A program made the position numbers and the translations under genes. Source: a virus. From it: a DNA stretch of 35,327 nucleotides. The stretch is from the IMG/VR virus record IMGVR_UViG_3300046010_003447, positions 1 to 35,327 of that record. One strand, given 5' to 3'. Under the pieces are notes generated by a model that searched no databases, was not told where the DNA came from, and worked only from the letters and a program-made list of their open reading frames with translations. Below are positions 3,452 through 31,361 of this stretch, piece by piece; within the stretch, counting starts at the first letter, position 1, and every line of letters begins with the position of its first letter.

Positions 3452-3870
3452 GAGAACATGTGACAAGAAAGTTTAAAGACGTAGACGAAGATAAACTTAT
3501 GGAGTTGGCCTTCGCTTACTGCGATAATTGTATGGAGGGGCAAAAGCAAGTGGCTACCGGAAGCGGTAAGATAGTAGAAATACGCGACCGCTTTGTGCCA
3601 ACGATTGATTATTTTTTAGATCATTGGTTGCGTAAGCATGACTTTGATTTTTATACAAGAATGGGCCTTTGGAAAATAAGGCAAGATCCTACGCATCCTT
3701 ATCATGAGGTTGCTAATAGGATTGTAACAATGTTTAAGTCCTTAGCTATTGACATAGTAGCAAATGAGGGCAAAGCTATTTTCTATGCTAAGAATGCTTT
3801 AGGCATGACCGATAGAGCCATGACCGAGAATACAAACATTGATACTATTACAATCAAGTATGAATCTTGA
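3442..3870 (+). CDS. terS: Terminase small subunit
   Basis: A 142-residue protein directly upstream of, and overlapping, the large terminase. It is largely helical, with RDRFVPTIDYFLDHWLRKH followed by an aromatic segment and a C-terminal GKAIFYAKNALGMTDR element that I associate with small terminases of Bacteroidota phages. It should bind the packaging site on phage DNA and load the large subunit. The N-terminal part would be the DNA-binding region. Start is ATG 3442, within the end of the glycosyltransferase gene. The assignment rests on position and on the KN..G..D motif. Confidence 0.8.
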   Translation: MEIREHVTRKFKDVDEDKLMELAFAYCDNCMEGQKQVATGSGKIVEIRDRFVPTIDYFLDHWLRKHDFDFYTRMGLWKIRQDPTHPYHEVANRIVTMFKSLAIDIVANEGKAIFYAKNALGMTDRAMTENTNIDTITIKYES

Positions 3871-5026
3871 TATAAAACTTTGTAAGCCACACCCAGCACA
3901 AAAGCAAGTCTTGGACTCCGATGCTCGTTTTAGAGTAATGATGTGCGGGCGTAGGTTTGGTAAGTCTTTAATCAGTCAAAACATAAGTATAGAGACGGGC
4001 CTACAAAGGCAGCACGTAGCATACATAACACCTACTTACCAATTAGGTAAGATGTTCTTTAAGGAAATATGTAAGCTATTGCCGGACAAGGTTTATAAAA
4101 AGAACGAGACCGATTTACTTATTGACTTTGTTACTGGTGGCTCGGTTAGGTTTTACACCGGTGAGCGATTAGACGCGATGCGCGGAACCAAATACCATTT
4201 AGTTATTATAGACGAAGCGAGTTATATACCTAACTTAGAAGAGGGATGGAATAATAGTATTAGACCAACGCTAACTGACTTTAAAGGTAAGGCTATCTTT
4301 TTAAGCACGCCCAGGGGCAAGAACTATTTTTATAGCTTATTCATGCGAGGCGGTGAGCCTAACTGGGAATCGTTTAAGTTTAGCACTTATGACAACCCGC
4401 ACATAGATCCTACGGAAATAGATGCCGCAGCGGCGCAGCTACCTAGCGTAGTATTTAAGCAAGAGTACATGGCAGATCCTATGGAGAATGCAGCTAACCC
4501 GTTTGGCTCCGAGTTTATATATGCTTGCACCCGCGAGACTAAAGGCACGGCCGTTTACTATGGTATTGACTTAGCTAAGTCGGTAGACTGGAGCGTTATT
4601 ATAGGCATGGATAAGCAAGGCAACGTGGTGCATTTTGAGCGCTTTCAAAAAGACTGGATGCAAACCAAAGAAACAATATTAAGGCTACCAAGAAACATAC
4701 CGATAGTAATTGATAGCACCGGCGTAGGCGACGCCATAGTAGAAGACTTACAAAAAAAGTTTAATAAGATGTACGGCTTTAAGTTTACGGCTACAAGTAA
4801 GCAGCAACTACTTGAGTCACTAAGCAGCGCCATACAAACTAAGTCTATAAGCTATCCGGATGGCCCGATAAAACAAGAACTAGAAGTATTTGAGTACACC
4901 TTTACACCTACCGGAGTAAGGTACTCGGCACCGCAAGGCTTTCACGATGATTGCGTTATTGCCTTGGCTTTGGCTAATAAGTGCCGTATTGAGCATAAAG
5001 AGGTGGGTAAGTACCACGTTATATAA
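3860..5026 (+). CDS. terL: Terminase large subunit
   Basis: The packaging motor and nuclease, 388 residues from ATG 3860. The ATPase domain has Walker A GRRFGKS (30-36), Walker B LVIIDEA (114-120) and the coupling motif LSTPRG (about 148-153). The RNase-H-like nuclease domain shows the three expected acidic sites: GIDLA (Asp237), VIDSTG (Asp285) and HDD (Asp363/364). The in-frame upstream TTG at 3839 would place the start deeper inside the small subunit gene; ATG 3860 gives an 11-base overlap and a natural N-terminus. It is complete and of usual length. The portal gene is not adjacent but 11.6 kb downstream, which is uncommon. Confidence 0.95.
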   Translation: MNLDIKLCKPHPAQKQVLDSDARFRVMMCGRRFGKSLISQNISIETGLQRQHVAYITPTYQLGKMFFKEICKLLPDKVYKKNETDLLIDFVTGGSVRFYTGERLDAMRGTKYHLVIIDEASYIPNLEEGWNNSIRPTLTDFKGKAIFLSTPRGKNYFYSLFMRGGEPNWESFKFSTYDNPHIDPTEIDAAAAQLPSVVFKQEYMADPMENAANPFGSEFIYACTRETKGTAVYYGIDLAKSVDWSVIIGMDKQGNVVHFERFQKDWMQTKETILRLPRNIPIVIDSTGVGDAIVEDLQKKFNKMYGFKFTATSKQQLLESLSSAIQTKSISYPDGPIKQELEVFEYTFTPTGVRYSAPQGFHDDCVIALALANKCRIEHKEVGKYHVI

Positions 5027-5045
5027 AAAGTATATTTATAAGAGT

Positions 5046-5684
5046 ATGAAGCTAACAATTGATAAATTCCAAAGACTGCAAGCAATTGCAACCTTAGACA
5101 CCGAGGAAATAGAAAAGGCTAGCCGTTTAGTGCAAGTATTGCTTGATAAAAGCGAGGCTGAAGTAGACGCTATGCCGTTAAGTAAGTTTGGTAAGCTATG
5201 CGATAAGTTAAAAAAAGCGTTTGATTTGACAATAGACGCAGCTACTATGAGCAAGCCTAAGACTTTGATAGTGGCAAATAACAATGTCTACAATTTAAAC
5301 TTTGACATTAAGCCGCCATTTAACACGGGGCGATATATTGAAGTCTTGACGTTTAGCAAAGATGATCCTATTATGAACATGCATAATATCCTGGCTAGCA
5401 TTTGTACGCCAATGAAATGGAGTTGGAGAAAGTTTAACTATGTTAAGCAGCCATACGATACGTTAAAGCATGAAGACTATGCAAACGATTTTAAGCAAGC
5501 AGACTTTAGACACGGATACTTTGCGATGGTTTTTTTTTATTCATTATTAACCAATTCAACGGGCGGTACAATGGACTCTTTAATAGCGCAGATGAATTTG
5601 AGAAAGGTGAACAAAAAAAGAGTGTTACAATTGAAGAGAGTTTTGCAGACAATTGGGGGTGGATCTATAACGCAAAACAAGTAA
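5046..5684 (+). CDS. Putative tail assembly chaperone, zero-frame product
   Basis: From ATG 5046 the zero-frame product is 212 residues. The first about 164 residues look like a folded domain with two helical segments (LQAIATLDTEEIEKASRLVQ.., LSKFGKLCDKLKKAF) and a beta part (FDIKPPFNTGRYIEV). A nine-T run at 5530-5538 then begins. Beyond it the zero frame encodes a low-quality basic tail, while the -1 frame stays protein-like for 94 more residues. This short/long arrangement is the behaviour of tail assembly chaperones such as lambda G/GT. The family itself is not recognised by motif, so the function is inferred from the frameshift, the WGW motif in the extension and the tail-gene context. 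Confidence 0.65.
   Translation: MKLTIDKFQRLQAIATLDTEEIEKASRLVQVLLDKSEAEVDAMPLSKFGKLCDKLKKAFDLTIDAATMSKPKTLIVANNNVYNLNFDIKPPFNTGRYIEVLTFSKDDPIMNMHNILASICTPMKWSWRKFNYVKQPYDTLKHEDYANDFKQADFRHGYFAMVFFYSLLTNSTGGTMDSLIAQMNLRKVNKKRVLQLKRVLQTIGGGSITQNK
5531..5537 (+). promoter_or_regulatory. T_TTT_TTT slippery site for -1 frameshift
   Basis: The zero frame reads ATG GTT TTT TTT TAT here. The heptamer T_TTT_TTT fits the canonical X_XXY_YYZ slippery pattern, and slipping back one base continues as TTA TTC ATT into a long, well-formed -1 frame. It is an expected position for programmed frameshifting in a tail chaperone gene. A homopolymer undercall (ten T instead of nine) would give the same picture and must be considered. 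Confidence 0.6.
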
Positions 5685-5821
5685 GTGAGTTTGAAGCAAT
5701 AGCACTAGACCTGGTTTATGATTTACCAGTAGTGCAATTCTTAAACGACTTGAGTTATTTAAAAAGTAAAAGACAACTAGATGAGCATCAATATAAACAG
5801 AGCGCAAGCGGATTTTCTTAG
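5537..5821 (+). CDS. -1 frame extension of the tail chaperone gene
   Basis: Reading in -1 frame from 5537 to the TAG at 5819-5821 gives 94 residues that join to the first 164 of the gene at 5046, for a 258-residue fusion. The extension starts LFIINQFNGRYNGLFNSADEF, then a charged linker, then FADNWGWIYNAKQ and a helical VVQFLNDLSYLKSKRQ end. The Asn-Trp-Gly-Trp core recalls tail assembly chaperones. Codon use fits the neighbours, and the zero-frame stop at 5684 lies within it. The end overlaps the next gene by 41 bases. The extension has no ATG of its own near the T run, so it is most simply made by frameshifting. Confidence 0.65.
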   Translation, partial: LFIINQFNGRYNGLFNSADEFEKGEQKKSVTIEESFADNWGWIYNAKQVSEFEAIALDLVYDLPVVQFLNDLSYLKSKRQLDEHQYKQSASGFS

Positions 5822-6428
5822 GGAGGGTGGCGACTTAGGTGGTAGCGACATTGTTGAGTTTGGGGTAGTTGCTAGTATGCTTGAACAATATGGTGCGGAG
5901 TTGCTTACAAATATTAGCTACTTTGGTAACAATAAAGGCGTTGTCGGTAGTGGTGATTTGCTTAGTAGTATGGTGCCGGAATTAACCGAGGAAAACGGCG
6001 TAGACATATTTAGGTTAAGGATGCTAGATTATTACGACTATCCCAACGAAGGGGTAAAAGGCGTTGATAGTTCTAGCAATGCTCCAGGTTCGCCGTACCA
6101 GTATAGGAATTATGGAATGAGTAGCGAAGGTAGAGCATCACTAAAAAAATATATACTAAGTGGCAAGGCAAAGATAACGAGCGTAAGGAATGATAAGGCT
6201 TTAGGTAAGGGAGGCGAAAAGATAGGCGTAGCATTTAGTAAAAGCAAGTCCTTAATAGATCAGCAAGTAGACACGCTTGCTTATTTGATTAAACGATTTG
6301 GTATTAAAAAGACTAACTATTTTACGGATGCTTTTAACAAGACCTTTAAAACCTTTGAGGTTGATATGGTAGAAGCGGCCGGAAGGGATATAGTAATAAC
6401 ATTTAATAGATTAAATAAAAGAAAATAA
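5781..6428 (+). CDS. Tail/neck structural protein, unknown
   Basis: A 215-residue soluble protein. The middle contains MLDYYDYPNEGVKGVDSS and APGSPYQYRNYGMS, a pattern I recall from conserved structural proteins of Bacteroidota phages but cannot name. An N-terminal amphipathic region and a C-terminal DIVITFNRLNKRK beta/basic end suggest a ring- or sheath-forming tail or neck component. It sits between the frameshifted chaperone and the distal-tail-like protein and shares one base with the next gene (TAATG junction). No enzymatic motif is visible. Confidence 0.6.
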   Translation: MSININRAQADFLREGGDLGGSDIVEFGVVASMLEQYGAELLTNISYFGNNKGVVGSGDLLSSMVPELTEENGVDIFRLRMLDYYDYPNEGVKGVDSSSNAPGSPYQYRNYGMSSEGRASLKKYILSGKAKITSVRNDKALGKGGEKIGVAFSKSKSLIDQQVDTLAYLIKRFGIKKTNYFTDAFNKTFKTFEVDMVEAAGRDIVITFNRLNKRK

Positions 6429-7558
6429 TGGCAATAACAAATATAGCCTACCCTAGTGGATCGCCTAGCTTACAAGATACGCTTTGGCATATCTTTGATA
6501 GCAATATAACTAGCGCAGATTTAAAGTACGTTATGGATATTTACGTAGGCGGCACGCAACAAGTAAGAGTTAAATTATATCCGGAGCCTACAACTGGCAT
6601 CGGTTATTTTGATGCTGGGCCTATCGTACGTAATACAATGACTTACGAGTGGCTAACACCAAACAACAATGTATTAATGTGCGAGCCTAGCGTAAGCGGA
6701 CAAGTAGCGCAGACTTACCAATATAGAATTGGCGAAGAGACAAGCGGCGTAACAACCTTAAACTTAGCTAGCGGAAGCGTTATAGCTTATAACTTTGTGG
6801 CACCTACATTCAAGCGCAAGGTTACCGATTTAAGCGTTTACAATGGCAAGGCTATGACTAATAGACCTACAACAATAGAAGCTGGCTTAGGCGATAATAT
6901 TTATATTCCGGTTAAAGATGTATCCGGTTTGGTGGTTAGTACTTATAATGCTAGCAACGTAAAGATAGCAGACACTACTTATAGCTTAGGTAGCACTAAA
7001 GCTTTTGGTCAATTAAACATTGGATCGCCAGCTTTAAACAACCCGACTAGCGTTATTACAAGCGCGGTTAAATATTATTTAGTGCAAATTGGTACTAGCA
7101 GTTATCAAGTAAACCTTGACTGCAATCCTAAATACGAAAGCTATAACTTGCATTTTATGAACCATCTAGGTATGTTTGACACGGCTAGATTTGATTTGGC
7201 TAGTAGGCTTACCATGGAGGTAACGCGTAAAAGCTTTACTAAAAGAGACTACTCTTTAGGTGCTACCGCGGTTAGTTACTACGATGCGAATAATAAATAT
7301 GTAAGCAGCAAGATTGATTATTTAAACAAAAAAGACCATAGCTATAAGCTTACAATGAATGCGCCAACCGATGCGGAGTACGAATGGCTTAATGAATTGA
7401 TAGACTCGCCTCAAGTTTACTTTGAACAAGATGGCTATTTTTATCCAGTAAGCATCAAGAATAACAATTACGAATATAGTAAATATGTAAACAATAGACT
7501 TAGAGTTTTTGAAGTTGACATAGATATTAACCAAACGCGTTATAGCCAATTAAGATAA
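6428..7558 (+). CDS. Distal tail-like structural protein
   Basis: A 376-residue, beta-rich protein. The N-terminal half has alternating strands (YVGGTQQVRVKLYPEP, IGYFDAGPIVRNTM). The C-terminal part has a compact module (DAEYEWLNELIDSPQVYFE followed by YFYPVSIKNNNYEYS.. and LRVFEVDIDINQ) reminiscent of the C-terminal beta domain of distal-tail (Dit-like) proteins. It lies immediately upstream of the hub-like protein at 7560, as distal tail proteins normally do. It is likely a ring at the tail tip; the fold is inferred from pattern and position, not from a catalytic motif. Confidence 0.6.
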   Translation: MAITNIAYPSGSPSLQDTLWHIFDSNITSADLKYVMDIYVGGTQQVRVKLYPEPTTGIGYFDAGPIVRNTMTYEWLTPNNNVLMCEPSVSGQVAQTYQYRIGEETSGVTTLNLASGSVIAYNFVAPTFKRKVTDLSVYNGKAMTNRPTTIEAGLGDNIYIPVKDVSGLVVSTYNASNVKIADTTYSLGSTKAFGQLNIGSPALNNPTSVITSAVKYYLVQIGTSSYQVNLDCNPKYESYNLHFMNHLGMFDTARFDLASRLTMEVTRKSFTKRDYSLGATAVSYYDANNKYVSSKIDYLNKKDHSYKLTMNAPTDAEYEWLNELIDSPQVYFEQDGYFYPVSIKNNNYEYSKYVNNRLRVFEVDIDINQTRYSQLR

Positions 7559-7559
7559 T

Positions 7560-10500
7560 ATGACTAGAATATTTATTGAAGGATATGAACTAGATTTAAC
7601 GCAAGGCATAAGCAATCAAATTACTTATGCTATTGATGATTTACAAAACTTAGATAGTAAAAGTACAAGCTTTACTAAAACTATTGTATTACCTGGTACT
7701 GCTAACAATAATAAGCTTTTAGGAAATATCTTTGAGTTAAACAATGCAAACTTTGACAATCCTTTAGACGCAAACGTGCTAGCAAATTTTAACGCATCAC
7801 GTAGCGCGGTAGCACGCATAGAAGTAAACGGCTTGCAGATAATGAAAGGCGTTTTAAGACTTTTAGAAATAGTACATATAGACGGAGCGGTAGAATATGA
7901 GTGCGCTATTTTTGGCGAACTTGGTGGCTTTATAAATGCGCTAGGTAATAATAGAATAGAAGATTTAAACTTTGACTCTTACAACCATACTTATAGCTAT
8001 GCAAATATTGTAGCAAGCTGGGATACTAGCGGAAGTACCGGCTATTGCTATCCTTTAGTTGATTACGGAAATGTAAGCACGGGAACTTATGGCGTTGCTA
8101 AAAAAGACTTTCAATACACTACATTTAAGCCGGCCTTATTTTTAAGAGAATACATAACAAAGATAATAGAAAATAGCGGTTATACTTACGAGTGCGATTT
8201 TTTTGATACTGCTAAATTTAGGAATATAATTATCCCTAATAATTCAAAGCAGTTAACTAAACAAACAAGCAACATACTTGGTTTAAGCAAAGCGATTAAT
8301 CAAAGCATGAATACTGGAGGCACGCAAGACTTTGTAAGCTACGAAACTAAGGTAGGTAGCTTATTTACTGCAAGCGTTGGCGATACTCTTTTCACTTATA
8401 CCGGAACGCCTACTTTAACTACTAATTTAACAATAGAACTTTTTGGTGATTATACTTTAGCTGCAAGACCTTTAACAATAGCTTTGCTAAAAAATGGCGT
8501 TGTAATTCCTTTAAGTAGCCAAACATATAACGGCACCGATTTACTTTATTATAACAAAACATTAAGCGTACAATTTGCAACTAACGATACTTTAAGAGTT
8601 AGGACTACATGCGTACTTGATATTGGCGACGAAGTTAATGTTAGCGAAAGTACTATAAACATATTAAACGACGTAGCTACAACATCACCTATTGAATTAA
8701 ATGATGAAATAATTGTAAATAATATAATCCCAAAAGGTATATTCCAAAAAGATTTATTTATATCGGTACTTAAAATGTTTAACCTTTTAGTAACTGAAGA
8801 TAAAAACAAGACTAACCATTTAATAATTAAACCTTATATTGACTTTTGGACTGGCGATATATTAGACTGGTCGGATAAGATGGATAGAAGTAAGGCTATT
8901 AAGATTAAGCCAATGAGTGAAGTTAATGCTAGGTATTACAATTTTAAATATAAACAAGATAATGATTTTTACAATGAAGATTATCGCAAGAAATTTAATG
9001 AGGGATATGGTGATAGGATTTACGATAATGGTCTTGAGTTTGCAAAAGATACTGAAAGCGTTGAAGTAATATTTGCAGCAAGCCCGTTATTTGGCACTAG
9101 CACAACCGACAAAGTTTTTCCGGCTATTTACAAAAAGTCTAACGAGAATACTAAAGAGGATTCTATGGATCACGTTGTGCGTATTATGCAGATTAAAAAA
9201 GTTACTAGCGTAGCTAGCTGGAATATTTTAAACCTAGCTACAAACTTAGGATCTAATACCGCGTATTTATATGCCGGTCATTTAAACAATCCTACAACGC
9301 CTACCGATGATATTAACTACGGAGCGCCGCAACAATTGTACTTTAACTTAACAAGTGGCGACTTAAGTAATAACTTATTTAATACTTATTATTCATCTTA
9401 TCTAGCAGAAATAACCGACAAAGATAGTCGCTTATTAAACGCATATTTTAATCTTACTGACTTAGATATTTTTAACCTAGACTTTAGTAAGTTTATTTAT
9501 ATAGACGGCGGACTTTATAGAATTAACAAAGTGATGGACTATGCTCCGGAAAATAATGAGTTAACAAAAGTTGACTTATTAAGAGTTATTGAAAAGGAAT
9601 ATATTGAGCAACCTCCACTACCTACAACAACTAGTACAACAACTACTACTACAACGGCTGCGCCTACAACAACTACTACTACAACGGCTGCGCCTACAAC
9701 AACTACTACTACAACGGCTGCGCCGACTACAACAACTACAACAACGGCTGCACCTACAACAACTACTACTACAACGGCTGCGCCTACAACAACTACTACT
9801 ACAACGGCTGCGCCGACTACAACAACTACTACAACGGCTGCACCTACAACAACTACTACTACAACGGCTGCGCCTACAACAACTACTACAACAAGTACAA
9901 CAACTACTACAACAACGGCTGCGCCTACAACAACTACGACTACAACGGCTGCTCCGACTACGACTACGACTACAACGGCTGCGCCTACAACAACTACTAC
10001 AAGTACAACTACAACAACAACTACCGATCCTTATGACTATTATATTGCGGATGAAATTGATTGCTCTAATTGTTCAGTAGTAGCGGCGGATCAAAGAGTA
10101 TCATTCCCAACCGGTACAAGTGTAACATTAAATAGGTATTATAGATACGTAGGTTTTGAAAATGATTTTACTTATTATGTTAAAAGTGTAACAACGGCTG
10201 GTGGTGCAGTATTATTAGAATTGCCTTCATATACAACTTGTAATGCAGCTTGTGGCAATACTACTACAACAAGTACAACTACTACTACAACAACGCCGGC
10301 ACCGACAACAACGACGACAAGTACAACTACTACTACAACAACGCCGGCACCGACAACAACGACAACAAGTACAACAACTACTACTACTACTTTAGGTTAT
10401 GCATTTGTTGATATTGCTAACGACACGGCCGGTACCGATATTACTAACATCACTATAAACGGAGTACAAGTAGACGGGGCAGTATTCCCAATTGTTGCTG

Positions 10501-10712
10501 GTGACGGCGCAAGTGCTACAACAACGCAAACCGGTGGCTCAAGAACAATAGTAGTATCTTATACAAATGTAGGCGGCGATTCAGTTCAAGTTATTGATAC
10601 TGCGTCAAACCTTAATTGTACTGGTGCTGGCTCAACAAGTAGGTCATTTGCTGGACAAGTTGTAGGCGATGGAGGTACATTATTTATATCAATGTTTGAC
10701 GGATCATGCTAA
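7560..10712 (+). CDS. Baseplate/hub protein with mucin-like threonine repeats
   Basis: A 1050-residue tail-tip protein. Residues 1 to about 688 form the structural part: an N-terminal beta module (FIEGYELDLTQGISNQITYAI, SFTKTIVLPGTANNNK), an FKPALFLREYITKIIENSGY segment and a long beta region, similar to hub or tail-associated proteins of Bacteroidota phages. Residues 689-822 are almost pure threonine in 10-residue units (seven Thr, Ala-Ala-Pro), residues 823-900 a small Cys-containing domain (CSNC ... CNAAC), 901-944 a second Thr-rich linker, and 945-1050 a C-terminal beta domain with two Cys. The layout suggests surface domains on stalks that could bind receptor or glycan. The Thr tracts are natural targets for O-glycosylation, and a glycosyltransferase gene follows 13 bases later. 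Confidence 0.75.
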   Translation: MTRIFIEGYELDLTQGISNQITYAIDDLQNLDSKSTSFTKTIVLPGTANNNKLLGNIFELNNANFDNPLDANVLANFNASRSAVARIEVNGLQIMKGVLRLLEIVHIDGAVEYECAIFGELGGFINALGNNRIEDLNFDSYNHTYSYANIVASWDTSGSTGYCYPLVDYGNVSTGTYGVAKKDFQYTTFKPALFLREYITKIIENSGYTYECDFFDTAKFRNIIIPNNSKQLTKQTSNILGLSKAINQSMNTGGTQDFVSYETKVGSLFTASVGDTLFTYTGTPTLTTNLTIELFGDYTLAARPLTIALLKNGVVIPLSSQTYNGTDLLYYNKTLSVQFATNDTLRVRTTCVLDIGDEVNVSESTINILNDVATTSPIELNDEIIVNNIIPKGIFQKDLFISVLKMFNLLVTEDKNKTNHLIIKPYIDFWTGDILDWSDKMDRSKAIKIKPMSEVNARYYNFKYKQDNDFYNEDYRKKFNEGYGDRIYDNGLEFAKDTESVEVIFAASPLFGTSTTDKVFPAIYKKSNENTKEDSMDHVVRIMQIKKVTSVASWNILNLATNLGSNTAYLYAGHLNNPTTPTDDINYGAPQQLYFNLTSGDLSNNLFNTYYSSYLAEITDKDSRLLNAYFNLTDLDIFNLDFSKFIYIDGGLYRINKVMDYAPENNELTKVDLLRVIEKEYIEQPPLPTTTSTTTTTTTAAPTTTTTTTAAPTTTTTTTAAPTTTTTTTAAPTTTTTTTAAPTTTTTTTAAPTTTTTTTAAPTTTTTTTAAPTTTTTTSTTTTTTTAAPTTTTTTTAAPTTTTTTTAAPTTTTTSTTTTTTTDPYDYYIADEIDCSNCSVVAADQRVSFPTGTSVTLNRYYRYVGFENDFTYYVKSVTTAGGAVLLELPSYTTCNAACGNTTTTSTTTTTTTPAPTTTTTSTTTTTTTPAPTTTTTSTTTTTTTLGYAFVDIANDTAGTDITNITINGVQVDGAVFPIVAGDGASATTTQTGGSRTIVVSYTNVGGDSVQVIDTASNLNCTGAGSTSRSFAGQVVGDGGTLFISMFDGSC
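9624..10025 (+). repeat. 30-bp coding tandem repeat, Thr-rich stalk 1
   Basis: A run of ACN codons interrupted by GCT-GCN-CC(N) at a 30-base period encodes eleven Ala-Ala-Pro marks in a 134-residue tract, plus a few Ser. Several units are identical at the DNA level while others carry synonymous changes (GCGCCG, GCACCT, GCTCCG), which shows both recent duplication and older copies. Such a tract can change length by recombination or replication slippage and may collapse in short-read assembly. Confidence 0.95.
10260..10391 (+). repeat. Thr-rich stalk 2 coding repeat
   Basis: A second threonine-rich tract of 44 residues with two Pro-Ala-Pro marks and interspersed Ser. It has a repeat unit of about 48 bases (ACAAGTACAACTACTACT start, GCCGGCACCGACA end) present twice. 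It links the small Cys domain to the C-terminal domain of the hub protein. It differs from the first tract in using Pro-Ala-Pro instead of Ala-Ala-Pro. Confidence 0.9.
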
Positions 10713-10725
10713 TAAAAAAAACAAT

Positions 10726-11691
10726 ATGATTTATATTTGCACACAACCTAAAATAATCTATTACGCTTGGCACCTAGAAGTAATGCTTACCAACTTTAAG
10801 TCGGTAGGCATTCCCGATAATAATATACACGTTTTATTGTCGGTAAGTAAAGACCAGGACGACAAGACTAACTTGCCCGAAACAAAGCAAATATTTGATA
10901 AGCTAAAAGAAAAGTTTAACAATATAGCTTTCTTTGAGTACACCGATACAAGGGTAATGCCTAACTATATCCCTAGCGTTATAATGAATGCAGTAAAGCA
11001 CCACTATAAAGCTTATCCATATTTACAAATGGAGAATGTTTTTTTACATGACTGCGATATGATATTCACTAAGCCGGTAGACTTTACTGACTTAGAGCAA
11101 GACGATACATGCTACGTAAGTGATAGCAAAAGTTTTATTTGGAGTGATTACATATTAGAAAAAGGCCAAGACCTTTACAATGATATGTGCGACATAGTAG
11201 GACTAGATTACAACGTGCCGATAGATAATAGACTACATAGCGGAGGCTCGCAATACATTTTTAAAAATACTGACTATAAGTTTTGGCAAAAGGTAGAAAG
11301 CGATAGCGTTGCTTTATATGATTACTTTCAAAAGAGCGAGCCATTAAGAGTGCAAAAAAATCCAAGCTACTACGGCATCCAACAATTTACTGCGGGTATG
11401 TGGGGCATGCTTTGGAATTGCTGGTATTATAATCTTGATGTAAAAATAACACCAAGACTAGATTTTTGTTGGGGTACCGATCCAATAGAAAAATGGAGCA
11501 AGTGCGATATTTTCCATAATTCCGGAGTGACCTACGACATTGGCAAAAGTCATAATATATTCTACAAGGGCGCTTATACCGATAAGCTACCTTATGAAGA
11601 TGTAATGAATAACGAATACAATGAGGCCTTTGGCTCTTATAATTATACTAACCTAATAAGACAAGTAGGCTTAAGCACTTGTTTAAAATAA
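10726..11691 (+). CDS. Putative GT-A glycosyltransferase in the tail operon
   Basis: A 321-residue protein from ATG 10726; longer in-frame starts would run into the hub gene. A Rossmann-like N-terminus is followed by VFLHDCDMIF with a DxD-type metal site (Asp109, Asp111), and a late FHNSGV segment contains a His as in GT8-like or related GT-A enzymes. There is no signal peptide or membrane segment. It lies between the Thr-rich hub gene and the tape measure, an unusual place for an enzyme, so it probably acts on a virion protein; the threonine tracts just upstream are the obvious candidate. That pairing is inference. The family cannot be fixed from sequence alone. Confidence 0.65.
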   Translation: MIYICTQPKIIYYAWHLEVMLTNFKSVGIPDNNIHVLLSVSKDQDDKTNLPETKQIFDKLKEKFNNIAFFEYTDTRVMPNYIPSVIMNAVKHHYKAYPYLQMENVFLHDCDMIFTKPVDFTDLEQDDTCYVSDSKSFIWSDYILEKGQDLYNDMCDIVGLDYNVPIDNRLHSGGSQYIFKNTDYKFWQKVESDSVALYDYFQKSEPLRVQKNPSYYGIQQFTAGMWGMLWNCWYYNLDVKITPRLDFCWGTDPIEKWSKCDIFHNSGVTYDIGKSHNIFYKGAYTDKLPYEDVMNNEYNEAFGSYNYTNLIRQVGLSTCLK

Positions 11692-11697
11692 AATAAC

Positions 11698-13275
11698 ATG
11701 GCAACTAAAAAGACACAAGTAGTCGTTGAAATAAAAACGGACTCCACACAAGCAACGACTGAAGCAAATAAAACCAAAGACGAAGTAGCCGGTATTGGCA
11801 AGGCTGCGGCTGGTAGTATTGCCGAACTTAAAGAACTTAAAAAAGCTTTAAAGCAAGCGGCGGCCGGCTCCGAAGATTTTAATCAATTATCCGCAAAAAT
11901 TAGAGACGTTGAAGACGGCATTGAAAATGCTAAAGTAGGTGCGAATGATTTTGCCGGTGCTTTAGAAAATGCCGGCGGGCCGGTAGGAATGCTAGGTAAA
12001 GGAATAAGACAATTAGAAATAATTACCTCTTCATGGGGTGCCGCTTTAAAAGCTACCGGGATAGGTTTACTTGTTGGATTGGTTGGCGCTCTTGCGGCTG
12101 CGTTTGCTAAGAACGAAAGCGCAATGAAAAAGCTTGATCCTATTATCAATCAATTTGGTAGGATTCTTAATGGAATTTTAGGAGCAATGGAGCCATTAAT
12201 TAATGCTTTTATAAGTCTTGCAGAAAAAGCCTTGCCTTATGTTAGCAAAGGTTTTGAAGTTGCTTATAGCGCTTTAAGTTCATTTTTGCAAGGTGTGGGC
12301 TTAGTAGGCTCGGCGGTTAAAAAGTTTATAAGTGGTGACTTTGCCGGTGCCTGGGATGATGCAAAAAAATCGGTTACCGAATTTGGTACAAGATATGAGG
12401 CTGCAAACGAAAGGTTTATTGCTGGCAGTAAAGAGTTAACCGACGCAGAAAAAGCCGAGCAAGAAAAAAGATTAGCCGATCAAAAAGCGGCTGCGGAAAA
12501 AGCGGAGCAAATAAGAAAGCAAGCAGAAGAAAAAAGAAGGCAAGAAATACTTGATAAACAAAAGTGGGATCTAGAAAGAAAAAATTACGAACTTGAACAA
12601 GATAGAGAATTAAAAGAAAGCGGCGACCAAATCATAGCAGACGCAGCAAAGGCGGACGCAGAAAGGGAGGCAAAAGCAAGAAAGGACAGAGAGGATGCTT
12701 TGAAATATAGGACTCAATTAACGATTGATAATTATAAAAGAGAACAAGATTTAAAAGACTTAGACAAAGCAAACGATGATAAATTAGCTAAAGCTAAATT
12801 AGATAATCTAAGAGCTATTGGAAATGCAACGGAGGCCTTAGGTGCTATTATTGGCCAACAAACTACGGCCGGCAAAGCGCTAGGAATTGCAACTGCTTTA
12901 ATAAATACTTATATTGGTGCGTCCGAAGTGATAAGAGCAAAGTCCGTATTGCCGGAACCATTCGGCACAATACAAAAAATTGCATCCGTTGCCGGTATTA
13001 TTGCAACGGGTATTCAATCCGTTAAGTCTATTATGGGCGTAAAGGTGCCAAGTGTTAAAGGATCAAGCGGTGGCGCAAGCGGTGGCTCTACGCCTAGCAT
13101 TCCGTCAATGAATGTAAGCGCACCTTTAATGGCGCAAGCAAGCACAACTACTTTAAATCAAGCACAAGTAAACCAAATAGGCAACGTGGCAGCTAGGGCC
13201 TTTGTAGTTGAAAGCGACGTGAGTGGTAACCAGGAACGTATCTTAAGACTTAACCGCGCGGCTAGAATTAATTAA
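11698..13275 (+). CDS. Tail tape measure protein
   Basis: A 525-residue, strongly helical protein. It has an N-terminal coiled coil (residues about 15-80), a glycine/alanine-rich hydrophobic segment GIGLLVGLVGALAAAF (about 121-136) that could enter the host membrane, a long charged coiled coil rich in Lys, Glu and Ala (about 245-375), a second hydrophobic stretch (about 390-440) and a Gly/Ser-rich region before the C-terminus. This mix is typical for tape measures, which set tail length and help DNA entry. At about 1.5 angstrom per residue it would give a tail under 80 nm. It is the only such protein in the genome. It follows the glycosyltransferase by 6 bases. Confidence 0.85.
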   Translation: MATKKTQVVVEIKTDSTQATTEANKTKDEVAGIGKAAAGSIAELKELKKALKQAAAGSEDFNQLSAKIRDVEDGIENAKVGANDFAGALENAGGPVGMLGKGIRQLEIITSSWGAALKATGIGLLVGLVGALAAAFAKNESAMKKLDPIINQFGRILNGILGAMEPLINAFISLAEKALPYVSKGFEVAYSALSSFLQGVGLVGSAVKKFISGDFAGAWDDAKKSVTEFGTRYEAANERFIAGSKELTDAEKAEQEKRLADQKAAAEKAEQIRKQAEEKRRQEILDKQKWDLERKNYELEQDRELKESGDQIIADAAKADAEREAKARKDREDALKYRTQLTIDNYKREQDLKDLDKANDDKLAKAKLDNLRAIGNATEALGAIIGQQTTAGKALGIATALINTYIGASEVIRAKSVLPEPFGTIQKIASVAGIIATGIQSVKSIMGVKVPSVKGSSGGASGGSTPSIPSMNVSAPLMAQASTTTLNQAQVNQIGNVAARAFVVESDVSGNQERILRLNRAARIN

Positions 13276-13310
13276 AAGTACATAAACTATAAAAAAGATA
13301 TTTATTAAGT

Positions 13311-14060
13311 ATGGACTTACCTATTTACGAACTTAAAATACAAGAGGAACTGCAAGATGATGCGGAAGTATCTTTTATTGCACTTGTAGACAAGCCGGCT
13401 ATTCAGCGTGACTTTGTGGCATTTAGCCAAGATTTTATTGAGCCAGCAAAAGGCGAAGCCAAAGACGCATTTTTACCTAGATGCATAAGCTATGTTATTA
13501 ATGAAGGCAAAGAAAGTGAACAAGCGGTAGCTATTTGCAATTCAATGTGGGAGCAGCATTTTTCAAATGATAAGCCAAAACTTAATTTTGCTATCCAGGA
13601 CGAAGACAAGCATATTATAAGCGGCCCATTAATGCTAGCAGACAAGCCTATTTATAGAAACAATAAAAAATTTGGTGAGCATTTTGTAACCTTTAGCGCA
13701 GAAACTATAAAAGACATTGCGATTAAGTTTAGCAAGAAAGGCTACCAAGGCAATGTTAATTTAATGCACGATCAAGACATGCAGCTTGACGGACTTATTA
13801 TGTTTGAAAGTTTTATTGTAGACAAAGCAAGAGGCATACAACCGATGGCCGGATTTGAAGATGCTAAAGACGGAAGCTGGTTTGGTAGTTTTTATGTAGA
13901 AAATGAACAAGCATGGCAGCTAATAAAACAAGGCAAGGTAAAAGGTTTTAGTGTAGAGGGATACTTTGAATACCCTAGCGAAAAAAAAGATCCTACCTAT
14001 GCAGAACAAAAACTAGCAGAACTAGCAGAATTATTAAAAGTACCTTTAACACATAAATAA
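13311..14060 (+). CDS. Prohead protease, XkdF-like
   Basis: A capsid maturation protease of 249 residues. The serine protease core has ISGPLMLADKPIYR (103-116), VTFSAETIKDIA, NLMHDQD with the likely catalytic His153, FESFIVD (165-171), DGSWFGSFYVEN and KGFSVEGYF with the likely catalytic Ser214. Residues about 52-82 carry an insertion-like module (FLPRCISYVINEGK..EQAVAICNSMWEQ) with two Cys. It would cleave the scaffold and capsid N-termini inside the prohead, and it sits right upstream of the scaffold-like and capsid genes as expected. Confidence 0.85.
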   Translation: MDLPIYELKIQEELQDDAEVSFIALVDKPAIQRDFVAFSQDFIEPAKGEAKDAFLPRCISYVINEGKESEQAVAICNSMWEQHFSNDKPKLNFAIQDEDKHIISGPLMLADKPIYRNNKKFGEHFVTFSAETIKDIAIKFSKKGYQGNVNLMHDQDMQLDGLIMFESFIVDKARGIQPMAGFEDAKDGSWFGSFYVENEQAWQLIKQGKVKGFSVEGYFEYPSEKKDPTYAEQKLAELAELLKVPLTHK

Positions 14061-14071
14061 TATATATAAAC

Positions 14072-14650
14072 ATGGAACAAGCACAAAACATTTTAAACAA
14101 AGTTTCTATGTTCTTTGCAGAACTTGTAGGAAACGAATCAATGCCAATGCCTAGCGGTGAAACTGCGGCACCGGTTAAAATGATGGAAGCCAAACTAAAA
14201 GACGGCACCATTGTTGAAGTAACTGAATTAGCAGTTGGCGGTATTGTAACTATTGAAGGCGTACCGGCTCCAGTTGGCGAGCATATCCTTGAAAGTGGTG
14301 AAACTATTGTCTTAGCTGACAACGGAGTTATCATGGAAATTAAACCAAAGATGGAAGATATGCCGGAAGTAGAAAGTCCAGTAGTTGAAGATATGAGCGC
14401 AAAATTTGCAGCTTTTGAATCAGCAACAAACGAGAAATTTACTGCATACGAATCTAAGTTTGCTCAATACGAAGCTAAACTAGGTCAAGCAAATAAAGTA
14501 ATTGAGGGCTTAATGCAAATTAGCAAGATGCTAGTTGAAGCACCTCAATCAGCACCGGATGCTGGTGTTAAAACAAGCAACGCTTTTGCGGATCAAAAAT
14601 TAGATGCAAAGAGCGAGTTTGAAAAATTTTCAAAATCAATTTGTTCATAA
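14072..14650 (+). CDS. Scaffold-like / capsid assembly protein
   Basis: A 192-residue acidic protein between protease and major capsid. The middle has a small beta domain (KLKDGTIVEVTELAVGGIV, PAPVGEHILESGETIVLADNG), followed by a coiled coil (about residues 109-152) rich in Glu, Lys and Ala, and a flexible C-terminus. The position and coiled coil fit a scaffolding protein. The beta module occurs, as I recall, in the corresponding protein of other Bacteroidota phages. It may be removed by the upstream protease. Confidence 0.7.
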   Translation: MEQAQNILNKVSMFFAELVGNESMPMPSGETAAPVKMMEAKLKDGTIVEVTELAVGGIVTIEGVPAPVGEHILESGETIVLADNGVIMEIKPKMEDMPEVESPVVEDMSAKFAAFESATNEKFTAYESKFAQYEAKLGQANKVIEGLMQISKMLVEAPQSAPDAGVKTSNAFADQKLDAKSEFEKFSKSICS

Positions 14651-14667
14651 ACTAAAATTATAATAAA

Positions 14668-15627
14668 ATGGCATTATCATTCAGCGGCATAAGCGCATAT
14701 ACTAAACAAGAAATTGCGCCTTTATTAACCGAAGCCGTATTCGCGGCAAAAACGCAGTCTTTATTAAAGGCTGGTGGTATCTTATTACCTAAGACTAAGT
14801 CTAGCGTAAAAGTACCTAAGTTAGCTACTAACGCAAACTTTCAAACTGACTCTTGCGGTTGGAACCCTAGTGGTACAACAACTTTAAGTCAAGCTGAAGT
14901 TGTAGTAGGTAAAATCAAAATTGAAGAGACAATTTGTCCTAAAGATTTTGAAGCTTACTTTACTCAAGAGGCTTTAAAAGCTGGATCAACTTACGAAGAT
15001 TTTGGATGGGCAGATTTTCAAACTAAGTTTACCGAGCAAAAAAACAAGATGATTGCTAAGCAATTAGAGGTTGGAATTTGGCAAGGTAATACGTCTAGTG
15101 GTAATCCAAACCTTTCTCCATTTGACGGCTTGATTAAGTTAATTGATGCTGGTTCTCCAGTTGACGCTAACGTATCCGGTTATGTATCGGGCGGCCCAAT
15201 TGCAACAATTACCGCTGCTAACGTAGTGAGTGTATTGAATGCAGTTTACAAAGCTATCCCAGTTGAAATCATTGACGCTGAAGACTTAAAAGTTATGTGT
15301 GGTAACGATGTTTATAGATTAGCAGTTTTAGCTTATCAAGCATTGAACCTTTACAACTACAAAGTTGACGGAGATGCAAACCAAACTTTTGTTATTCCAG
15401 GAACTAACGTAGAGTTAGTAGCGGTTAACGGATTGAATGGAACTGGTGACATTTACGCAACTACTTTGTCTAATATCGCTATGGCGTTTGACTTAGAAGC
15501 TGAAGAGGAAAACTACATGATTTGGTATTCTAAAGATAATAACGAGGTTCGTTATAGAGTAGCATTCAAATTAGGTGTGAACGTAGCTTACACAACTTTA
15601 TGTGTTAAGTTTAAGTCTGCAATCTAA
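14668..15627 (+). CDS. Major capsid protein, HK97 fold
   Basis: A 319-residue major capsid protein. Support: location after protease and scaffold; an N-terminal helix; an elongated beta-rich E-loop-like part (KSSVKVPKLATNANFQTD); a P-domain helix (EDFGWADFQTKFTEQKNKMIAKQLEVG); and a C-terminal A-domain with DLKVMCGNDVYRLAVLAYQAL and YSKDNNEVRYRVAFKLGVNVAY. The length is that of compact HK97-like capsids. Codon choice shifts towards GTT, GCT and AAC compared with its neighbours, as expected for a very highly expressed gene, and a strong terminator follows directly. Confidence 0.88.
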   Translation: MALSFSGISAYTKQEIAPLLTEAVFAAKTQSLLKAGGILLPKTKSSVKVPKLATNANFQTDSCGWNPSGTTTLSQAEVVVGKIKIEETICPKDFEAYFTQEALKAGSTYEDFGWADFQTKFTEQKNKMIAKQLEVGIWQGNTSSGNPNLSPFDGLIKLIDAGSPVDANVSGYVSGGPIATITAANVVSVLNAVYKAIPVEIIDAEDLKVMCGNDVYRLAVLAYQALNLYNYKVDGDANQTFVIPGTNVELVAVNGLNGTGDIYATTLSNIAMAFDLEAEEENYMIWYSKDNNEVRYRVAFKLGVNVAYTTLCVKFKSAI

Positions 15628-15643
15628 TTAATATATAATCAAG

Positions 15644-15674
15644 AAAAGGCGGTGAAATAAGCCGCCTTTTTTTT
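15644..15674 (+). terminator. Rho-independent terminator after capsid gene
   Basis: A perfect 9-bp stem AAAAGGCGG / CCGCCTTTT with a 9-base loop is followed by further T residues (eight T in all from the stem end). It lies 16 bases after the capsid stop and only 14 bases before the next start, so it probably caps abundant capsid mRNA while letting part of the transcription through. Confidence 0.9.
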
Positions 15675-15688
15675 AAACTTTTTTTAAC

Positions 15689-16207
15689 ATGCCATGTGTA
15701 ATAACTAGCGGATATACAATTGATTGCCGCGAAAATATCGGAGGCTTACAAGCCGTTTTTTTAGCCGAGTTTGGTAATATTTCCGGTGTTACCGAGGTAA
15801 GCGGTCTAGTTACCGGCATTACTAAAGTAGCTGGTAAAAGATTTTACAAATTTGAGGTGCCACGTGCAACCGCAAATACAAGTTCTAATGCAACTGCGTC
15901 CGAGGAAAACGGATCAGTATTTTATACACACCAGGTTGTATTCCCTTTAAACAAGAGAGATTCTACAACTGCTAACATTGTACGTACTTTAGCCAAGAAT
16001 AAATTAATTGCGGTTACTTTAGATATGGACGGAGTTTATAGAATGTACGGCGAAAACAATGGTCTTTACTTAGCTTCTACGGAGTCAACAAGTGGAACTG
16101 CGGCTGGTGATCGTAACGGATATAATATTACTTTGACTGGTATTGAAAAGGATGATTTTTTACAAGTGTCTAATGCAGTAGGCTTAGCGCTTGAGACTGC
16201 TGGGTAA
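15689..16207 (+). CDS. Major tail tube protein
   Basis: A 172-residue beta-rich protein. It begins MPCVITSGYTIDCRENIGG, has VTKVAGKRFYKFEV-like strands, a HQVVFPLNKRD segment and ends with NITLTGIEKDD and a short helix. I recognise this as the tail tube type found in many Bacteroidota siphophages, with the C-G-G N-terminus and the GY.ItLTG.E C-terminal element. It is flanked by terminators on both sides, so it is made as a separate, presumably abundant transcript, which fits a tube subunit. The family call rests on pattern, not on a computed match. Confidence 0.7.
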   Translation: MPCVITSGYTIDCRENIGGLQAVFLAEFGNISGVTEVSGLVTGITKVAGKRFYKFEVPRATANTSSNATASEENGSVFYTHQVVFPLNKRDSTTANIVRTLAKNKLIAVTLDMDGVYRMYGENNGLYLASTESTSGTAAGDRNGYNITLTGIEKDDFLQVSNAVGLALETAG

Positions 16208-16230
16208 TTCTACCTAATAGTTATTTAATT

Positions 16231-16264
16231 ATGCCCTACCTACATTGCGTGGGTAGGGCATTTT
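16231..16264 (+). terminator. Rho-independent terminator after tail tube gene
   Basis: A 10-bp perfect stem ATGCCCTACC / GGTAGGGCAT with an 11-base loop, followed by TTTT. It lies 23 bases after the tail tube stop and ends 12 bases before the next start. Confidence 0.88.
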
Positions 16265-16276
16265 AATTTAAAACAA

Positions 16277-16648
16277 ATGTTACATATATATAAAGGGGTG
16301 GATAATAATTTGATATTTACTGGCTTAGAATTGGCGACAATTGCTAACCCTAAATATTTATTTATTTTTACAAGCGCTACCGAAGATAGTGTTATATTTG
16401 TAGGAACTAATATAAGCACCGAAGATAGATACCAAAAGGTCTTAGTCTTAAAGGCAGTTTTTGACAATGAAGAGTGTGGTACTTGGCGTTATAGAATCCG
16501 TGAGCAAGCAAGTGCTACAAATAAAAAAGAGGCTTTAAGTGGCGCAATAGTAGAAGAGGGCTTTATGTATTTACAAGAGGCCACGGAGTGCGCAGAACCG
16601 GTGTACGACGAACAATGTAACGAATTTAAAACCTATTCAAGTGAGTAA
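16277..16648 (+). CDS. Hypothetical phage protein, 123 aa
   Basis: A 123-residue protein with an N-terminal beta half (LHIYKGVDNNLIFTGLELATI, PKYLFIFTSA) and a middle strand pair (WRYRIREQ). I recall similar proteins beside the tail tube gene in Bacteroidota phages but no function. The context between tail tube and portal suggests a virion or assembly role. It overlaps the portal gene by 8 bases, so the two are translationally coupled. It has two Cys near the C-terminus. Confidence 0.65.
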   Translation: MLHIYKGVDNNLIFTGLELATIANPKYLFIFTSATEDSVIFVGTNISTEDRYQKVLVLKAVFDNEECGTWRYRIREQASATNKKEALSGAIVEEGFMYLQEATECAEPVYDEQCNEFKTYSSE

Positions 16649-18761
16649 AGCATATAACATAATTAACGTCCAATTTGATCAAGCGCAGCAACCTAAATTT
16701 GAAGAGAAAAGGGGCCGCAACTATATTGAGTTTGGCGAAAAAAACAATTACCCAACCTATCTAATAGACCTTTACGGCGAAAGTCCTAAGCATGGCGCTA
16801 TTATTAAAGGCAAGGTTAACTACATTTATGGCAAGGGATTTGAGGACATAACTCAAAAAGCCAACACCCACGGCGAGACCTGGAACCAAATTTTAAAACG
16901 ATCTATCTTAGACGATGAATTGCATGGCGGTTTTTACTTACAAATTATTTATAACGCCTTAGGTGTTATTAAAGATGTGTTTCATTTAGAATTCCAAAAG
17001 GTAAGAGCAAGCAAAGATTTAAGTTGTTTTTATGTTAAGAACGATTGGACTCTAAGTGACTTTAAAGAAAAGCCTAGAGAATACCCAGCGTTTAACATTA
17101 ACAATCCAACGGGTGCGCAGATTTTATATGTTAAGCAGTACAATCCTAAGAGTGACGTATATCCGTTACCTAGTTATTTTCAAGGTCTTAACTATATAGA
17201 AAGTGATATTCAAGTAAGTAGACACATTCTAGGTAATGCAAAGCATAACTTTGTCGCTACTAAGTTAATTAATTTTAACAATGGCTTACCTCAAGAAGAG
17301 GAGCAAGCCGATGTTGAAATGGATTTAAAAAAGAAATTTACAAACCATGACGGCGATCGCGTAGTAATTGCGTTTAACCCATCAAGGGAAAATGCAGTAG
17401 ACATTGTTGACCTTGGCGAAACAAGTTTAACAAAAGAGGACTTTACAAACGTCAATAATTTAATACAACAAGAGATATTTAGTTGCCATCAAGTTACAAG
17501 CCCTATGTTATTTGGTATTAAAACCGAAGGGCAACTAGGAGGCCGTAGCGAAATCCGTGACGCATACCAAATATTCCAAAACACATACGTTAACGAACGC
17601 CAGCAAGAACATGAAGTTACATTTAGTAAGCTTATGAACTTAGCCGGCATTCCTGGTGAGCATACAATTATACCAGTAGAACCTTTAAGCTTTGAATTTA
17701 CGGAGGCTATTATGGCTGCTAATTTGACTAAAGATGAAATAAGAGAATTGATGGGTAAGGAGGCTCTAGATACAAGCGTTAAAACACAAGCGCAAATTAT
17801 CAGCGATAACATTAATTCACTTAGTCCGTTGGTAGCTAATAAGGTTCTAGAAAGTATGACAAGCGATGAAATTAGAAGTTTAGCCGGCTTAGTACCTAAA
17901 GACATTACAATAGATGCAAGCGGAAATACGATTGCATCGCAACCGATAGCGGCTGCAAATGAGTCTATTAAAAACTTAACCGGACGTCAGCACCAAAACG
18001 TTATGCGTATTGTGCGTCAGTTTGCGAATGGCAAGATTAATAAAGCGCAAGCTAGCTTAATGCTTAAGAATGGTTTTGGATTTACCGAGGACGATGTTAA
18101 TACGTTCTTAGGTGTGGACGATGATCCAGCAACGGAGCAAGCATTCGCATCAATGCAAGACGAATTATTACTTAATGAGTTTGCAGCGTGTGGCGATAAT
18201 GTTAACGACTTTGACGTAGTAGAAACGCACGAAGCTAGAAACTACGAGAAGTTTGCAGACGAAGAGATTAACGTTCTTAAAGCAAACGTGCTAGATTTAA
18301 TTAGCAAAGACAAAAAAATAACGCCGGAGGTTTTAGCTAAGGTGCTTAACAAAAGCGTGCAACAAATAGATAATGCTTTAGAGGCGCTAAAGCTTGAGGG
18401 GTACTTAGTCCAAACCGGTATGGAAATAAGTATATTAGCCCCTAATTATACACCGGTAGTAAGAAAGTTAACCGAGCCACTTAAAAAAATTCCTGGTGGC
18501 GACAAAGCTACTAAGACCGAGGTGCTTTTAAGATATACTTACTATGGGCCGAAGGATGATAAGAATAGACCATTTTGTGCGCGAATGTTACAACTAGCCG
18601 AGACTAAGCTTTGGAGCCGTGCCGACATAGAGAACATAAGCGAGCGTCTAGGTTATTCGGTTTGGGATCGTAGAGGCGGTTGGTTTACGGAGCCTAACGG
18701 CAACCATAGACCATATTGTCGCCATCGTTGGAATGTAAAAATAGTAACTAGAAAAAAATAA
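16641..18761 (+). CDS. Portal protein fused to a MuF-like domain
   Basis: A 706-residue portal with GTG start at 16641. The N-terminal 450 residues form the portal core: NIINVQFD.., PKHGAIIKGKVNYIYGKG, then SPMLFGIKTEGQLGGRSEIRDAYQIFQN (about 285-312) and a stem/wing part. The region after that includes a helical linker and a small helix-turn-helix-like element (KITPEVLAKVLNKSVQQID). The last about 75 residues (YYGPKDDKNRPFCARMLQLAE ... GGWFTEP.G..RPYCRHRW) resemble the Mu gpF minor head domain, with CRHRW at about 692-696. Fusion of portal and minor head functions is uncommon. The gene comes after the capsid and tail tube genes instead of after the terminase. Confidence 0.85.
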   Translation: MSKAYNIINVQFDQAQQPKFEEKRGRNYIEFGEKNNYPTYLIDLYGESPKHGAIIKGKVNYIYGKGFEDITQKANTHGETWNQILKRSILDDELHGGFYLQIIYNALGVIKDVFHLEFQKVRASKDLSCFYVKNDWTLSDFKEKPREYPAFNINNPTGAQILYVKQYNPKSDVYPLPSYFQGLNYIESDIQVSRHILGNAKHNFVATKLINFNNGLPQEEEQADVEMDLKKKFTNHDGDRVVIAFNPSRENAVDIVDLGETSLTKEDFTNVNNLIQQEIFSCHQVTSPMLFGIKTEGQLGGRSEIRDAYQIFQNTYVNERQQEHEVTFSKLMNLAGIPGEHTIIPVEPLSFEFTEAIMAANLTKDEIRELMGKEALDTSVKTQAQIISDNINSLSPLVANKVLESMTSDEIRSLAGLVPKDITIDASGNTIASQPIAAANESIKNLTGRQHQNVMRIVRQFANGKINKAQASLMLKNGFGFTEDDVNTFLGVDDDPATEQAFASMQDELLLNEFAACGDNVNDFDVVETHEARNYEKFADEEINVLKANVLDLISKDKKITPEVLAKVLNKSVQQIDNALEALKLEGYLVQTGMEISILAPNYTPVVRKLTEPLKKIPGGDKATKTEVLLRYTYYGPKDDKNRPFCARMLQLAETKLWSRADIENISERLGYSVWDRRGGWFTEPNGNHRPYCRHRWNVKIVTRKK

Positions 18762-24349: not shown

Positions 24350-24833
24350 GCTTTTACTTATTTACCTAGCAATCCTAGCATTGCTTATTTTAGCTGCGTG
24401 CAACCCATTACGTAAGGCCGAGCGTTTAGTTTTAAACAATAGAGACGCTAGCAATAGAGTCTTTAACACCTTGGCCCTGGAGCGTCCATGCGCAAACGAT
24501 ACTATGATAGTAACGTTAAGCGACACCACAATTTTACAAGATACCATCTTTGACTATAAGCGCGACACAATTAACAATGTTATAACTTTGACCGAGAAAG
24601 GCAAGACGATTGTTAAGACTATTAAGGTTGTAGACATTAAGACCGCTTATGTGCAAGATATGCGCATGGTAGCGATTCTAAGCGATAGCGTGCGATTCTA
24701 CAAGCTTTTATATCAAGCCGAACATAAGTACAAGAAAAAGGCCGAGAGCCGTTTTTGGTGGCTTATAATTGCAATAGTCGGTATATTCATTTTAAAACGT
24801 TATGTATGGTCATTTCTCAGCACGTTACCTTAG
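24333..24833 (+). CDS. Probable unimolecular spanin
   Basis: A 166-residue protein combining an N-terminal lipoprotein signal and a C-terminal membrane helix. Residues 7-22 are hydrophobic and end in the lipobox Leu20-Ala21-Ala22-Cys23; Asn at +2 favours sorting to the outer membrane. The middle (24-140) is periplasmic-looking, with beta strands and a short charged helix, and residues 142-154 (WWLIIAIVGIFIL) plus basic flanks form an inner membrane anchor. One chain spanning both membranes is the hallmark of a u-spanin (T1 gp11 type), which fuses the membranes at lysis. It overlaps the endolysin by 28 bases. No separate i-spanin/o-spanin pair is visible. Confidence 0.65.
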   Translation: MAPKSKLLLIYLAILALLILAACNPLRKAERLVLNNRDASNRVFNTLALERPCANDTMIVTLSDTTILQDTIFDYKRDTINNVITLTEKGKTIVKTIKVVDIKTAYVQDMRMVAILSDSVRFYKLLYQAEHKYKKKAESRFWWLIIAIVGIFILKRYVWSFLSTLP

Positions 24834-30761: not shown

Positions 30762-31352
30762 CTAAAAAGGTGTTTCGTCTTCGTCTAAGACAATATTATT
30801 ATCGTTTTTGTCTGCAAATAGCTTTAAAGTAGTTTGCTCTAGAAATTGCATCATGTCGCTATCATCCCATTGCTCCTTGCCTTTAACTTTTATCTTAGTC
30901 ATTTGCGGTAAGCCGTTAGGATTTTCTTTGGTGTAAGCCGGTGCAATCTTTTCGCCGTCCTGGTATAAAGTAATACCGGTAATAGTTTTAGTTGCGTCAA
31001 GCTTGTCCTTCATGGCCCATGGCATAAAACGTAATACTTTATTTACGTCTACGTTAGGCAAAGCTTTTAAAAAGCTTGATGCGTAACGGCTAGAGTATGG
31101 CAAGCTAACTACGTAGCTATCGTCGCCGTCCGTAAAATGTAGCTGCCATTGCGTGCCATAGTCATTCGTACGCGTGTTGATAGTTTCTAGTTTTGCAGTA
31201 AGATCCTTAAAACGCTCTTCATAAACTAGCTTCCCGGTTTTTGTTAAGCGCTCCGTTGTGCGCTCGTTTGGTTGCTTGTGTTGGCGTACTAAGTTGCCGT
31301 CAGCAACGTTGAGGTAAGTTGTGTTAACACCTCCTAAATTTGTTAATGCCAT
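30762..31352 (-). CDS. Probable single-stranded DNA-binding protein
   Basis: A 196-residue protein starting at ATG 31352 (MALTNLGGVN); a longer frame to 31388 would overlap the promoter box. The sequence is beta-rich (TQWQLHFTDGDDSYVVSLPY, KTITGITLYQDGEKIA) and ends in an acidic tip LDEDETPF, similar to the DDDIPF tip by which SSB proteins recruit partners. It is the first gene of the leftward operon, next to two nucleases and a helicase. The OB fold is not proven by the sequence; the tip and context are the main support. Confidence 0.6.
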   Translation of the reverse strand: MALTNLGGVNTTYLNVADGNLVRQHKQPNERTTERLTKTGKLVYEERFKDLTAKLETINTRTNDYGTQWQLHFTDGDDSYVVSLPYSSRYASSFLKALPNVDVNKVLRFMPWAMKDKLDATKTITGITLYQDGEKIAPAYTKENPNGLPQMTKIKVKGKEQWDDSDMMQFLEQTTLKLFADKNDNNIVLDEDETPF

Positions 31353-31361
31353 AAAATTAAA

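Follow-up and report, generated by a model that had tools for sequence, protein, structure and literature searches.

The tail assembly chaperone system of phage lambda consists of a short product (gpG) and a -1-extended product (gpGT) that have an N-terminal domain in common, the extension adding a further domain. P2 gene E, whose products gpE and gpE+E' are placed together with Mu gp41 in the Pfam family Phage_TAC_7, also uses a T-rich -1 slip. The tail assembly chaperone (TAC) of HK97 has a solved structure (2ob9). The tail-chaperone frameshifts described in a published review are all ribosomal, and the heptamer U_UUU_UUU is less shift-prone in E. coli than A_AAA_AAG (PMC5009743). The overlapping ORFs of Shigella mxiE, a transcription activator gene, are joined by one extra nucleotide at a run of U (PMC1088944).

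The gene studied here lies at positions 5046-5821 of an IMG/VR virus record of 35,327 bases, the whole of which is referred to as the window. It is very probably a two-product tail assembly chaperone gene, giving a short zero-frame product and a long -1 product by slippage at a run of nine T (T9). As in lambda, the predicted products have a common N-terminal domain and the -1 extension adds a second one. The gene differs from that of lambda in its slip site, which is T9 rather than the lambda heptamer, in its location next to the terminase gene, with the probable tape measure gene 5.9 kb downstream, and in its long zero-frame tail (36-85 codons among relatives); no sequence similarity to lambda gpG/gpGT was detected in the libraries searched. 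The likeness to P2 gpE/gpE+E' and Mu gp41 consists of a weak, sub-cut-off profile match of one relative, whereas the present protein is longer, carries an added domain and is encoded in a different gene order. With mxiE, which is not a phage gene, the parallel lies in two overlapping ORFs that one inserted nucleotide at a run of U would bring into a single frame, transcriptional slippage being a candidate in the present gene.

Gene layout and genome neighbourhood

The zero-frame ORF (5046-5684, plus strand) starts with ATG at 5046, ends with TAA at 5682-5684 and encodes the putative short, G-like product of 212 amino acids, which is conserved in 48 relatives. The T9 run occupies positions 5530-5538 and is read in the zero frame as GTT TTT TTT TAT (5529-5540), with the heptamer T_TTT_TTT at 5531-5537 in the phase for a -1 slip. 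The 164 residues encoded up to this point (5046-5537) constitute the domain common to both products. The -1 frame is open from upstream of the T9 run to TAG at 5819-5821; its extension past the slip (5537-5821) comprises 94 amino acids and would end the predicted GT-like product, so that slippage would yield 164+94 = 258 amino acids. The segment 5539-5684 is dual-coding, containing both the zero-frame tail (48 amino acids) and the first half of the -1 extension. The lengths, coordinates and heptamer phase given in the initial annotation were all reproduced on recomputation. In the proposed mechanism, most translation would end in the zero frame and produce the 212-residue protein, composed of the 164-residue chaperone domain and the 48-residue tail, while a minority would enter the -1 frame at T9 and produce the 258-residue protein, which ends in a helical domain. 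The analogy with lambda gpG/gpGT suggests that many short copies would coat the tape measure protein and that a few long copies would recruit the tail tube protein.

An alternative is that two separate genes are present, the downstream one starting on its own inside the overlap, and this is how the locus is annotated in the two cultured phages described below. No ATG, GTG or TTG occurs in the -1 frame of the window ahead of codon 65, a position already downstream of the conserved GWIYNAK motif, and many relatives likewise have no early start in this frame. Independent initiation at a usual start codon therefore cannot yield the conserved part of the extension. As both parts are also fused in one relative (L101, see below), two separate genes are very unlikely.

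The gene for the terminase large subunit (3860-5026, plus strand; phrog_2, E 2e-46) is located directly upstream, and a terminase match is found upstream in 42 of 46 tested loci. The next gene (5781-6428, plus strand), encoding 215 amino acids, shares 41 nt with the end of the -1 frame and is syntenic in 43 of the 46 loci, and the 376-aa gene that follows it keeps its place in 41. The probable tape measure protein (525 amino acids; 11698-13275, plus strand) was recognized by a weak match to phrog_1538 (E 4.2e-5), with four genes between it and the frameshift gene. Both positional claims of the initial annotation, adjacency to the terminase and a location well apart from the tape measure, are thus borne out, and the gene does not occupy the usual tail-chaperone place between the tail tube and tape measure genes.

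The order of the structural genes in the window (3860-18761) is itself unusual: terminase, chaperone, unassigned genes, tape measure, protease, virion structural proteins and, last, portal. The second half of a 1050-aa protein encoded at 7560-10712 contains long threonine repeats of the form TTTTTTTAAP; the protein is without a family match. A run of twelve G occurs at 35096-35107, close to the end of the contig, where the surrounding sequence is AT-rich, and may be a sequencing artefact or a regulatory tract.

Conservation of the slip site and selection on the two frames

With the zero-frame protein as query, 48 IMG/VR loci were obtained, with relatives reaching down to about 28-30% protein identity. 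All 48 possess exactly nine T in the same phase, and in all of them the -1 frame continues for about 90-95 codons past the slip, except for L041, which is cut by the contig end. So that the slip site itself could not bias the outcome, searches were repeated with four alignments of only the -1 part, and these reached relatives at about 30% identity. The extension was located in the relatives with a profile, and the best 80 loci per search were taken. Among the matches listed there are 211 distinct slip regions, of which 209 contain exactly T9 in phase and two contain T10 (L143 and L101). In L143 the base following the run is also T, a substitution that leaves the two-frame layout and the frame relation intact. 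In L101 the two parts are fused into one continuous gene of 246 codons (L101:847-1584), and the region matching the zero-frame tail still resembles that of relatives but has stop codons. The conservation of T9 in phase exceeds what chance would give. The dipeptide FF is encoded by TTTTTT in 92 of 256 cases outside the slip site in these loci, and always by TTTTTT at the slip. The initial annotation had raised two opposing outcomes, ten T in one continuous gene and a zero-frame tail conserved without a -1 extension; both were checked on relatives, and neither was borne out. T9 with two frames prevails, L101 being the only continuous T10 gene, and the extension is conserved together with an open tail.

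Both frames bear the marks of selection. In a test of wobble positions on 30 distinct sequences of clade A, the most variable position before the run is the third position of the zero frame (pi 0.455 vs 0.146-0.186), and past the zero-frame stop it is the third position of the -1 frame (pi 0.320 vs 0.102-0.209). The wobble-position signal thus moves from the zero frame to the -1 frame, as expected from the frame switch at the run that had been proposed. The mean pN/pS is 0.23 for the zero-frame N-terminus (codons 1-161) and 0.20 for the -1 frame beyond the zero-frame stop, with intermediate values for both readings in the overlap. Judged by these ratios, the -1 extension is under purifying selection, and its FGWIYNAK...QFLNDLxYLKxK motif is kept. 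For the zero-frame tail, synonymous codons were resampled given the -1 protein in 45 representatives (5000 simulated means). The tail is open for a mean of 54 codons, against 17 expected, and the highest simulated mean is 28. Taken with the pN/pS values, this openness argues that selection acts on both tails, at least in keeping each frame open. The decayed tail of the T10-fused L101 suggests that the tail is probably maintained in the other relatives; it appears to persist as long as the slip is needed and to decay otherwise. Fold searches matched both halves to a 243-aa BFVD protein (A0A6J7WJY4) as well.

These data bear on the reading of the junction as a sequencing error, a disrupted gene, or phase variation through T9/T10 replication slippage. 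A homopolymer at a frame junction invites such a reading, as does L101 with its T10 and continuous frame. However, T9 occurs in 209 of the 211 distinct sequences among the matches listed, from many metagenomes, as well as in two cultured genomes; both frames are under selection; and the lone T10 fusion has a decayed zero-frame tail, unlike a switching state. This reading is accordingly highly improbable in all three of its forms and, like internal initiation, was rejected on the evidence given above.

The cultured relatives are the Nonlabens (Persicivirga) phages P12024L and P12024S, with genomes of 35.7 kb. They surfaced only through a viral fold search, which led to P12024S, as tblastn of the family proteins against cultured phages gave no match. 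In both, the gene after the terminase reads CTT TTT TTT TAT, a T9 run in the same phase (24388-24396 of JQ823123 in P12024L), and the -1 frame carries a KWGW motif, so that the T9, the two-frame layout and the WGW motif are all present. Their N-domains are homologous to those of the family (hhalign probability 96.4%, E 1e-9); the extensions are too diverged to align significantly on their own, giving a weak alignment. The records of the two phages annotate the locus as two separate hypothetical genes, and no report of a frameshift in either phage was found in the literature searched. Another weak fold match, Flavobacterium phage 6H, was set aside, its gene being without a clean T run plus -1 extension. 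No relative was found in the bacterial genome contigs searched, and hence no host or prophage could be named from them; the Nonlabens phages suggest that the host of the virus is probably a member of the Bacteroidetes.

Identity of the products

The 164-residue shared domain was modelled by AlphaFold2 with a pLDDT of 87.7. Its residues 1-60 resemble tail assembly chaperones, the top solved-structure match, best of 162, being HK97 TAC (2ob9) over 57 residues with an rmsd of 3.1; the Z score of 3.8 is low and the match extends over no more than the first third of the domain. Sequence searches against solved structures gave no match; the resemblance to HK97 TAC is one of fold. Residues 14-63 of one relative (L048) match Phage_TAC_7 with an E of 2.1e-4, at 21.7 bits against a curated cut-off of 25; no match to this family was found in the window's own record. 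PHROG families annotated "tail protein" are weakly matched by 14 of 41 members and those annotated "tail assembly chaperone" by two of the 41; for the protein of the window, neither Pfam nor PHROG gave a significant match. The model of the extension is helical and comprises two long helices and a linker of low confidence; a fold search with this C-terminal model was uninformative, its matches being generic helical proteins, for the most part histones, with Z below 4.

Taken one by one, these fold and profile matches are weak. In combination with the two-product layout they favour a tail assembly chaperone above other readings of the gene, as supportive rather than decisive evidence. Counting against the overall reading, besides the weakness of the matches, are the distance of the gene from that of the tape measure, the failure to find a conserved stimulatory element (see below) and the lower shift-proneness of the U heptamer in E. 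coli (PMC5009743). The lambda G/GT-like interpretation of the initial annotation is therefore supported by the conserved T9 and by selection on two frames, and by chaperone matches that are independent but individually weak. What the sequences show is the architecture, its conservation and selection on both frames; the occurrence of slippage, its rate and the chaperone function of the products are inferred.

Proposed slippage: ribosomal or transcriptional

The shift may occur in transcription, a level which the initial annotation did not consider. In one reading, the ribosome alone slips by -1 at U_UUU_UUU and RNA polymerase reads T9 faithfully; in the other, RNA polymerase slips at T9, so that U10 mRNA would give the long product and U9 mRNA the short one, each by normal ribosome reading, as in Shigella mxiE. 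By our own estimate the former has close to an even chance and the latter is somewhat short of one, while a contribution of both is unlikely.

The heptamer is correctly phased in all two-frame members, which speaks for the ribosome, as do the ribosomal tail-chaperone cases of the review; the latter also count against the polymerase (PMC5009743). The conservation searches yielded neither of the elements that stimulate ribosomal shifts: no conserved RNA structure was found around the slip (consensus energy of -0.05 kcal/mol and a mean z close to 0) and no conserved Shine-Dalgarno-like stimulator upstream of it (GGAG in none of 45). This tells against the ribosome and in favour of the polymerase. 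The length of the run points the same way. All 211 runs among the matches listed have nine or ten T, though seven suffice for the ribosomal heptamer, and positions 1 and 9 of the run, which lie outside the heptamer, are invariant. The last heptamer base is never C: the change from TTT to TTC at this position would be doubly synonymous, and TTC accounts for 30% of Phe codons. On the other side, protein constraint could fix both outer Ts, as each is the middle base of a codon, a hydrophobic one for position 1 and a -1 Leu/Phe one for position 9.

Insertion by E. coli RNA polymerase at T7 and T8 gave 5% and 10% rescue (PMC6260861), rates that exceed the 30:1 ratio cited for lambda (PMC5009743) and favour polymerase slippage. 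Third-frame stops are no closer than chance and provide no argument for transcriptional slippage.

The avoidance of homopolymers in these genomes bears on both readings. In the genes of the 45 representative loci, the window and locus L288, T runs of at least 7 and A runs of at least 8 are avoided; T runs of at least 8 in genes outside the slip site number one, against 12 expected. The avoidance of both T and A runs is stronger when they are in phase for a -1 slip, and T runs of at least 7 are depleted further in phase than out of phase (0.41 vs 0.63). The stronger depletion of in-phase heptamers, both T and A, is in line with ribosomal slippage and is a point against the polymerase. Within genes, depletion sets in at length 6-7 for T runs and only at 8 for A runs, near the polymerase thresholds reported for E. 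coli (PMC6260861), and selection against A/T runs appears at length nine in many bacteria (PMC1088944), both in line with the polymerase. The pattern of T-run avoidance as a whole favours neither enzyme clearly. A second T9 run is located at 31417-31425 of the window, apparently in the intergenic region between an ORF at 30762-31388 (minus strand) and an ORF that starts at 31464 (plus strand).

The description of this gene as a previously unannotated lambda G/GT-like system, unusually placed and carrying an invariant T run, is well supported by the comparison of its sequences. The two-product gene is conserved in about 200 distinct phage contigs and has been split into two hypothetical genes in two cultured phages, and it represents a tail-chaperone-like gene beside the terminase, where position-based searches do not look. 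Since all relatives have at least nine T and slippage by E. coli polymerase is measurable at T7/T8, the gene makes the question of ribosome versus polymerase directly testable in the cultured pair, P12024L on Persicivirga sp. IMCC12024. It is possible, at somewhat less than even chances, that RNA-polymerase slippage at an invariant T9, and not the ribosome, sets the ratio of the two chaperone products across a widespread group of tailed phages. If the slip proves transcriptional, this would be, to our knowledge, the first tail assembly chaperone known to work at the transcript level, and the gene would be more than a variant of the known G/GT kind.
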